Notes under the pieces: model-generated | The model's input: the letters and a program-made list of their open reading frames with translations, nothing else | What the model was told of the DNA's origin: nothing | The model's database searches: none | Translations under genes and position numbers: made by a program | In this document: piece by piece, positions 16,361 to 19,412 of the stretch | Layout: each line of letters opens with the position of its first letter | How positions within the stretch are numbered: position 1 is the first letter of the stretch | Source of the DNA: Cochliopodium minus | Taxonomy: Eukaryota; Discosea; Himatismenida; Cochliopodiidae | Direction of reading: 5' to 3' | DNA length: 32,901 bases | Assembly: GCA_024220525.1 (NCBI GenBank) | Contig: JAMYWO010000372.1 | Location: 1,652 to 34,552 of the forward strand

Positions 16361-18087
16361 ATGGATATTAACAGTTTGATCAATCATGCAAAAGATATCA
16401 ATAATCAAAAAAAAGAAATAAATAAAGGATTGATAGGGAATGATATGAACATCACAATTAAAAGATTATCCAATTTTATTTTGGAGAAAAGAGCAATAAT
16501 TAACCAATATGATCCTGAATCATTAGAATTTGAATTGAGATTAGGATCAAAGCAACAAAATGTGTTCAATCCATCCATAAAGAAAGAAATTAAAGAAAAA
16601 TTAATAAATAAGCTCAATGAAGAAAATTATGTTTGTAAAGAAAGGATTACCACCGATTTTATTTATCAATCAGAAAATGGGAATAGAAGAATCACAGTGG
16701 ATAGAAATACAAACGATATATTGGAAGATATTTTAAAGGGAGAGTTAGATCAGAAAGATGATTTTGAATGCCCTGAGATAAAGCATGTATTAAGATGCCA
16801 AATAAAGTCTGAGGTAAAATAATAAATAAATTAAAAAAGAAAAATGAGAGAAAGAAGTAAAATAATTATTTTATTGAATGGATTGGGAGAACAAATAAAA
16901 TTTTATAAAGAAGACATCATAAATTATTATTATAAATGAGAAATTTTATTTTCTCCTTCAAAAATAAAATTTCTCTGAATTCAAAATAATATTCAAAAAA
17001 AAAGAAAATTAATAAATTCATTTCATTTCATTTTTGTTTTCTAGGAGAGAAACTCTAATCCAACACACATGGTTCACCCCGGTTATCAGTTCATCAGGAA
17101 AAAAGACAGGCTCACTTATCAAGGAGAAGACGATTGGTGGATTGATATAACCACCGTTTTGTCTCACCAAGTTGGAGCTAATCAAGAAAATGAAAGTCAT
17201 GAGGTATTTTGTTTTTTTATTTTTTATTTTTTTAATTTAATTTTTTTTTTTCATTTTATATTTTTATTTTTAATTTTTAATTTATTATTATTATTATTTT
17301 TTTTATATCAATATTTTTTAAATAATTTAGGTTGAGTTTGAATTCCACTCACAAATTTTGTATTACGAAAAGAATCAACTTGATGAATTATTCACTAAGT
17401 TCTGGAGAAAAGTGTTGTATTTGTTGGATTTCACTAAAATTGAAATTAACAATAACAACAATAAAACAATAACAATCACACAACCTCAAATACACAATGT
17501 ATTTTTTTTACAATTATTCTTTTTTTGAATATTTATTTATTTTTAATTTATTAATTTTCATTTTTTTAAATAAAAAATAAAAATAAAACAATCTCCAGAA
17601 ATGTCAAATTAATATTTTTGTTTCCAATCATTTTTATTTTTATTTTATTTTTATTTATTTCCTTATTTTTTTATTTTATTTTTTTATTTTATTTTTTTAT
17701 TTTATTTTTTTATTCAAACTTTTTTATTATTGTTTAAATTTGAATTAGAATACACATCAACACAACAACAATAAACAAAATAACACACACCACCATACAA
17801 GGCCAACATTGGAGGAACATTTTCAAAGCGAAACCAAAAAAACCCGAACAGACACTTCCATCAAATTAAAAGTTTTCAGCACTCCTCCTCTCGACTACTT
17901 TACTTCTAATTCAGTAGAGGAAACGAGAGGAGATATTTTGATAAAATTGAAAAAAGAGTTTTTGGGACATTTCGGCTTTAAAAATTTTGACAAGGAGGGT
18001 GTTTTTGAAAGGTTTCCTGGAAGTTTGCCCATTTCTTTGAATGGAACTCGTTTGCAAGAAGTCAATTCTACTTATTTTGTTTCTGAA
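16361..18087 (+). CDS. mRNA-capping enzyme: TTM-type RNA triphosphatase fused to guanylyltransferase, 3' part missing at gap
   Basis: Four exons (16361-16813, 17045-17203, 17331-17498, 17749-18087), all in phase 0, give 373 residues before the sequence enters a simple repeat and the N at 18230. Residues 25-255 match Cet1-type RNA triphosphatases of the triphosphate-tunnel fold: LEFELRLGSKQQNVFNP, RITTDFIYQ, RKKDRLTYQ, DWWIDITTVLS and the metal-binding strand VEFEF. An Asn/His-rich linker follows (about 243-277). Residues 278-373 begin a guanylyltransferase: ERFPGSLPISL (347-357) and then TYFVSE, which in the family runs directly into the catalytic K-x-D-G. The intron donor sits exactly there, so the active-site Lys lies on missing sequence. 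The enzyme would remove the gamma-phosphate and add GMP to nascent mRNA in the nucleus. The first Met is chosen because it begins the region with coding character. Confidence 0.85.
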
Positions 18088-18099
18088 GTAAAAATTTTT

Positions 18100-18126
18100 T
18101 TTTTCAATTTTTGTTTTTTATTTTTA

Positions 18127-18171
<45 letters not shown>

Positions 18172-18366
18172 ATAATTTATTTTTTATTTTTTATTTTTTA
18201 TTTTTTATTTTTTATTTTTTATTTTTTATNAAAAATAAAAAATAAAAAATAAAAAATAAAAAATAAAAAATAAAAAATAAAAAATAAAAAATAAAAAATG
18301 AAAAATATAAATAAAAATAAAATAAAAATAAAATAAAAATAAAATAAAAATAAAAAAAATAAAAAA
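18100..18366. repeat. Mirror-image simple repeats around a one-base gap (N at 18230)
   Basis: Left of the N is (ATTTTTT)n grading from ATTTTT-type units. Right of it is (AAAAAAT)n grading into AAAAAT-type units, so the two sides are reverse complements. Both lie within introns of genes that point at the gap, the capping enzyme from the left and the ABHD-like hydrolase from the right, and neither gene is finished. The simplest reading is that two contig ends were joined here. Confidence 0.85.
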
Positions 18367-18391
18367 AAATAAAAAATGAAAATAATATTAC

Positions 18392-19412
18392 CACATGATA
18401 CTCTTGAAATTCCAACAACAGGTCTCCTTTTATTATTATTATTTTTGTTTTGTTTTGATTTATTTTTATTTGATGTATTCATCAAATTTTTTTTTTTTTT
18501 TACCATCCTGACAAACTAAAACAAAAAGCTGCTCTTTTAATTTCAGATTCTTTGCTACTTCCAGTCATTCCTAATAAAAAAAAAAATTTCAAGAATTAAA
18601 ACATCATATTATTTTGATTTTGATTTGATTTATTTTTATTTTTATTTTTATTTTTATTTTTATTTTTATTTTTATTTTTATTTTTATTTTTGATTTGATT
18701 TGATTTTTTTTTATTTTTATTTTTATTTTTATTTTTATTTTTATTTTTATTTTTATTTTTTTTTTATTTTTATAATTTTTTTTATTTTTATTTTTATTTT
18801 TATTTTTATTTTAATAATTTTTTTTTTTTTTATATTTTTATAATTTTATTATATTTTTTTTTTTATATTTGATTTTTATTTCTTACCAGGCAAAATGAAA
18901 ACTATGGGTTTGTTTTTGTCATCATCATCAAGTACCATCCAATCAAGTGCAAGTGTACCATCATCTGAAAAAATAATAAAAACTCCGTCAAAAATATTTC
19001 ATTGCAAGATCATCTTACCTTCGGTTTTTATTGTTTGTCTTTCATATTCTATATCTTGAGATGGTCTCAATACATTTATAATTGATTGTGGATGTGTATT
19101 AAATGCCCATATTGTAGGTTTGAATTTTCTTTTCAATCTTTTTTTTTTTTATTCAGAGAAAATTAAAATTTTTTTTTTTTATATTTTTTTTATTTTAACG
19201 ATCTTTTCTTTCTTACATCGGCAATCTGTCCAATATCCTTTTATTCTCCAATGTATCTTTATAGTACAATTGAGGATATTCACATACTATGTAATAGTAA
19301 TACCACATATAGAATATAATGGTTGATAGCTTGGTTGTATGGTCAAATAATTGATTTAATTTGAATAATTTTGAAAATGCCTTTTATTTACAATAAAGAT
19401 CCAAAAGAACAT
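18392..19412 (-). CDS. ABHD1/ABHD3-type alpha/beta hydrolase, N-terminal half; rest lost at gap
   Basis: Six exons (19412-19392, 19329-19217, 19137-19019, 18964-18887, 18570-18504, 18426-18392) join in consistent phase into about 144 residues. Residues 1-20 are a membrane anchor (MFFWIFILSTIIFYMWYYYY). Then come FKPTIWAFNTHPQS, YERQTIKTEDDGTLALDWMV, FILPGMTGSSKES and WRPVVGISRVSCG, matching the order in ABHD1/3 and YheT proteins: aromatic segment, DGG-LDW, oxyanion LPG-TG, and the position of (N)xRG. The nucleophile elbow and the other catalytic residues would lie in exons beyond 18391, which run into the gap. The family hydrolyses medium-chain phospholipids or esters at membranes. Exon 1 is only 21 nt. 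The intron 18571-18886 is an almost pure TTTTTA repeat. Confidence 0.8.
18611..18880. repeat. TTTTTA simple repeat inside an ABHD-gene intron
   Basis: Runs of TTTTTA-type units with small interruptions fill most of the intron 18571-18886. There is no coding or RNA signal. Confidence 0.85.

Follow-up and report, generated by a model that had tools for sequence, protein, structure and literature searches.

The window, i.e. the whole stretch of DNA analysed (32,901 nt, corresponding to bases 1652-34552 of contig C367 in an assembly of 44.65 Mb and 598 contigs), contained a single non-ACGT base over positions 1-32,901 (n = 1), an N at position 18230. A capping-enzyme gene ran towards it from the left on the plus strand, and an ABHD-like gene, encoding an ABHD1/ABHD3-type alpha/beta hydrolase, approached it on the minus strand, from the right-hand side.

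The window half of the capping-enzyme gene comprised four plus-strand exons, whose limits were set by eye (for exon 4, the start). A tunnel-type RNA triphosphatase was encoded in its N-terminal part by exon 1 (16361..16813; FELRLG) and in its remainder by exon 2 (17045..17203; GYQFIRKKDRLTYQGEDDWWIDITTV); exon 3 (17331..17498) was an open frame with splice-like ends, and exon 4 (17749..18087) carried the start of the guanylyltransferase domain. The latter read FPGSLPISLN...STYFVSE and was followed by gtaaaa, the catalytic lysine being the next expected residue. Against PF02940 (cut-off 24 bits), exon 1 alone gave no match and the open frame holding exon 2 reached 18.9 bits over positions 168-217, under the cut-off, while the joined triphosphatase exons matched positions 88-221 with 39.4 bits. 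An exon-by-exon PF02940 search of the genome gave no match anywhere, the window's own gene also being missed. Exon 4 alone gave no match to PF01331. To see whether the left flank recurs as an intact allele or another copy, window positions 17700-18200 were used in a DNA search. This yielded at least 120 matches from the 40 scored of 661 candidates, and among them no match but the window's own extended left of 18065.

On the minus strand, three ABHD exons were matched in the comparisons made with the 5' half: ILKRKFKPTIWAFNTHPQSIINVLRPSQDIEYERQTIKTE (19019..19137), DDGTLALDWMVLDDDDKNKPIVFILPG (18887..18964) and (G)MTGSSKESEIKRAAFCFSLSG(W) (18504..18570). The last exon before the N, (W)RPVVGISRVSC (18392..18426, phase 1, limits by eye), was too short for a match of its own. 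Read by eye, the last four exons ended ...LPG / MTGSSKESE / WRPVVGISRVSC(g), followed by gtaatatt at 18392. The window half aligned to positions 2-106 of a human ABHD3 fragment (38% identity, 75.5 bits, E = 3e-22); this fragment, as well as the 3'-half query used below, is approximate in sequence. When the 5' half was searched against the genome at E<=1, the three rows returned were all the window's own exons, and no other match was obtained.

Between the two genes, the capping-gene intron started with its donor gtaaaa at 18088 and was T-rich from about 18090 (18088..18229, plus strand), and had a perfect (ATTTTTT)7 array at its end (18179-18227). The ABHD intron (18231..18391, minus strand) started with the donor gtaatatt adjoining 18392 and was T-rich on its own strand; on the plus strand it appeared as a perfect (AAAAAAT)9 array at 18237-18299 within an A-rich stretch reaching about 18376. 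The arms were reverse complements of each other, shifted in register, and only one base paired directly across the N. The first-pass annotation had described the left repeat as the reverse complement of the right one, the capping-enzyme gene as stopping before its catalytic Lys exon and the ABHD-like gene as stopping before its nucleophile; the register-shifted arrays, the exon ending ...STYFVSE before gt at 18087 and a window side devoid of a nucleophile motif bear out all three descriptions.

Partner of the capping-enzyme half

The PF01331 search of the whole assembly returned six places, on contigs C158, C324, C11, C75, C173 and C18. The short exon 4 of the window was not among them, so a second 5' half would also have been missed by this search. 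The place on C18 was discarded as a capping partner since its flanks, read by eye, looked like those of a DNA ligase. On C324, C11, C75 and C173, an FPG-like start (FFG in C75) was read by eye upstream of the motif-I place and in the same frame. From the same reading of flanks, C158, a contig of 88.7 kb, held the only one of the six PF01331 places without a 5' part.

The C158 exon opened immediately after an acceptor AG with KTDGVRCCLFIPQQFRG..., its first residue being the K of KTDG (KTDGVRCC...). The start of this exon lay 273 nt from the end of C158, and an (ATTTTTT)9 array preceded it on the sense strand, beginning 4 nt from the contig end. Exon 4 of the window and the C158 exon both broke between codons, with fitting phases, and the E/K junction read EKTDGVR, the standard motif; motif I (K-x-D-G) appeared as KTDGVR on the C158 side, its phase continuing from window position 18087. 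Concerning the domain itself, the C158 part alone matched PF01331 positions 23-194 with 81.3 bits, whereas the joined window and C158 exons matched positions 2-194 in one match with 97.3 bits (cut-off 29.6), exon 4 supplying positions 2-22. The left piece is thus predicted to belong with the end of C158. A PF03919 search gave three places but did not locate the C-terminal OB fold of the capping gene.

Five guanylyltransferase-like genes were present in the genome, on C324 (L009), C11 (L010), C75 (L011), C173 (L012) and across the window and C158 (L013). Motif I was intact in two of the five (C158 and C324) and altered in the other three, with KSQS, QADG or NPDG at the aligned place; these three paralogues may possibly be inactive. 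The degenerate C11 paralogue also had a triphosphatase-like exon upstream (L010 2842-3300), with 34% identity over 77 columns to the window gene (E = 4e-07).

Partner of the ABHD half and further, probably chimeric contigs

The human ABHD3 3'-half query hit one place in the genome at E<=10, on C199, a contig of 64.0 kb (E = 0.0068, query positions 119-203). In this locus, the nucleophile exon VVGFSLGAN (G-x-S-x-G) was read by eye upstream of the hit, preceded by a T-rich intron; the C199 minus strand here encodes EVKLTSKSFFGATKYDMNYLFNSLKETVIQRGYSRVLYVVGFSLGAN and, beyond it, more exons extending to GGHLGW. The last window exon (18392..18426) was read as continuing into EVKLTSKSFFGATKYD on C199, phase 1 to phase 1, the window exon ending with G and the C199 exon starting with AG to give C-E-V-K. 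The C199 read-through aligned to positions 107-313 of the ABHD3 fragment (23% identity, 49.3 bits, E = 2e-11), and the joined protein spanned the fragment in a single alignment (28% over 326 columns, E = 3e-34), with both G-x-S-x-G and GGH. The two ABHD halves appear complementary (positions 2-106 and 107-313), with neither overlap nor gap. Against PF00561 (cut-off 25.8), the joined protein scored 29.3 bits and the C199 half alone 28.5 bits, a gain so small that PF00561 by itself is no proof of the junction. The genome search with the same profile gave 12 places, none of them on C199, the profile being too general to locate the ABHD half. The right piece would thus belong with the 3' half on C199.

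Both 3' halves had been noted as absent, which holds for the window but not for the assembly, where they were found on C158 and C199. Contig ends had been proposed as the place for the missing exons; the K-x-DG exon was indeed near one, at its 273 nt from the end of C158, while the ABHD nucleophile exon was found on C199 but not at a contig end.

C199 itself carried one N, at position 16519 on the upstream side of the ABHD half, with an exon LLVEEGVIMGKVE adjoining it. The 77 nt following this N on the minus strand exactly matched the first 77 bases of contig C106 (L035 4443-4519 and L042 1-77), and the two contigs diverged past these 77 nt, within a T-rich intron. C106 continued as an acyl-CoA dehydrogenase gene, with PF22217 and PF00441 both over cut-off. 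The LLVEEGVIMGKVE exon was ruled out as a part of the ABHD gene, being identical to the C106 start that leads into the acyl-CoA dehydrogenase. In the C199 read-through, no more than four residues ahead of the ABHD exon were included in the ABHD3 alignment; a shorter read-through gave a best E of 0.29 against ABHD3 and carries no weight, its true ABHD part also being left unaligned. With the LLVEEGVIMGKVE exon belonging to the C106 gene, the ABHD half would be attached on C199 to a foreign gene through a T-rich intron. As the ABHD partner does not lie at a contig end, a second misjoin on C199 must be assumed, which the C106 duplicate supports without proving it.

On C158, the minus strand (L013 29-680 and L036 5985-7426) showed a guanylyltransferase exon ending ...FACVDDDNQ, then an N-free array intron, then a cytochrome P450 exon (PF00067 positions 280-336, 60.2 bits). 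The stretch read before the P450 exon contained guanylyltransferase exons and no P450 5' half, and an open frame further along C158 contained FQCGPRICLG, which we take to be a haem-binding motif. Judged by this gene content, C158 is a predicted second, unmarked chimera, in which the guanylyltransferase gene leads through an N-free array into the 3' half of a P450 gene.

Array junctions across the assembly

Exact overlapping matches to (ATTTTTT)5 numbered 5,532 in the genome, with 2,816 on the forward strand and 2,716 on the reverse; the reversed motif matches the same arrays, so that this count has no control. A census of the tight T-array/A-array pattern with <=3 mismatches returned 34 rows, which were merged by hand to 24 sites, the window's own included. 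An N fell within 13 of the 24 sites, the other 11 being free of N, and at <=2 mismatches within six of seven sites, against a background of one N run in the 49,094 bases of 15 gene-centred loci. N was thus greatly over-represented at T-array/A-array junctions, and its presence at 13 of 24 sites indicates that the failure is general in this assembly. The reversed control pattern (A-array/T-array) gave 27 rows at the same stringency, to be compared with the 34, so that T/A junctions as such were not over-abundant. Gene directions taken from the nearest long open frame at 12 N-bearing loci were too noisy to be counted and were left aside.

Contig starts were also sampled systematically (n = 39), of which 16 read as N and 23 were readable. 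At least three perfect array units occurred in the first 150 nt of five of the 23 readable starts, compared to nine of 533 tiles of 150 nt (Fisher p = 1.2e-4), a comparison that is conservative since some of the tiles came from loci chosen for their arrays.

Two individual sites can be described further. At C181:16781 (L067 1523), a T-array and an A-array flanked an N, and an RCC1-like gene, its family assigned by eye, entered from each side. At C166:80459-80539 (L028 1464-1544), with a palindrome core at 80489-80530, a tight array palindrome without N was found, with weak A2M matches on its right side only, all under the Pfam cut-off; it is perhaps an unmarked misjoin and perhaps natural. The C166 site was therefore dropped as a natural control, the one-sided weak A2M matches leaving room for a misjoin. 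Given this N-free palindrome and the 11 N-free census sites, a palindrome alone proves nothing.

Origin of the junction

C367 is almost certainly a chimeric scaffold, in which the single N at 18230 (18230..18230) would mark a false join, through a T-rich repeat, of two unrelated assembly pieces whose flanking genes continue on two other contigs. This reading rests on gene content, both partner halves having been shown to occur elsewhere with fitting phases and continuous domains; junctions of this type were also shown to be enriched in N. Introns of this AT-rich genome often carry (ATTTTTT)n arrays on their sense strand, contigs break within these arrays, and the resulting same-array ends would be interchangeable to the assembler and the scaffolder. 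The broken capping-enzyme intron (plus strand) may then have been joined tail to tail with the broken ABHD1/3-type intron (minus strand), with one N as a placeholder. We infer this order of assembly events, as well as a scaffolder that paired same-array ends in opposite orientation and wrote one N. In scaffolding practice, a lone N marks a place where two pieces were estimated to overlap but could not be merged. A statement of this single-N convention was not found in the literature searched on scaffolder placeholders and repeat misjoins, including passages of PMC6733440 and PMC8110574.

The two genes could instead be truly linked and convergent, with both 3' halves lying in a gap of several kilobases that the N represents. 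Both genes do run into the N in convergent orientation, and the assembly contains longer N runs (542 N in L007, possibly a gap). Both 3' halves, however, sit on other contigs with other neighbours, and the gap would need to accommodate C158 (88.7 kb) and C199 (64.0 kb), or pieces of them; we consider such a large gap very unlikely. Missing kilobases or a false join had been the two options of the first-pass annotation, and the false join is the one that stands, the partner halves having been found elsewhere. Unique kilobases between the true partners need not be missing, as what separates them can be a matter of array length alone.

Still less probable is a real palindrome with one ambiguous base, flanked by half-genes that are pseudogene fragments. 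If the N is taken as A, the junction has the same sequence as the palindrome without N at C166:80489-80530, which speaks for this reading. Against it, no second copy of either 5' half appeared among the matches scored in the non-exhaustive searches, the 3' halves occur elsewhere without 5' halves, and the exons are open with splice-like ends and no decay. That the genes are truly split between loci and rejoined by trans-splicing through array-bearing introns would suit halves on different contigs, fitting phases and T-rich introns, but is extremely improbable, as the C158 array runs to the contig end as in a broken contig, both intron halves bear the same array strand and so would not pair with each other, C199 shows an independent sign of misassembly, and C158 a second chimera at an array with the P450 gene.

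The N junction at 18230 is thus most likely an ordinary assembly artefact, a sequence error and not biology, and the earlier caution that linkage across 18230 is unsafe is upheld by the continuations of both genes on other contigs. Any 'convergent pair' or 'palindrome' spanning 18230 would be wrong, as would gene models and the gene order across it, and the linkage should be discarded. The same type of error is suggested at other array junctions, marked by an N on C199 and unmarked on C158, and fusions, truncated genes or palindromes at (ATTTTTT)n arrays in this assembly should not be trusted without reads.

When compared with known systems, the joined ABHD halves would form an ordinary, diverged member of the ABHD1/ABHD3-type alpha/beta hydrolases, with nothing notable apart from this. 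The joined capping-enzyme exons resemble an mRNA capping enzyme in scoring over the cut-off for both PF02940 and PF01331 and in having an intact KTDG motif I (on C158). They differ in that a tunnel-type triphosphatase and a guanylyltransferase are here combined in one gene model; the title of a paper on a capping enzyme refers to a metazoan/plant-like enzyme in Trichomonas. As for the junction, it resembles a repeat-induced scaffold misjoin, with a break and a join in a high-copy simple array, truncated flanking genes, and partners situated on other contigs, in one case at the contig's end. It differs from such misjoins in its inverted arms, which result from both introns carrying the array on their sense strand, so that the two genes end up tail to tail.
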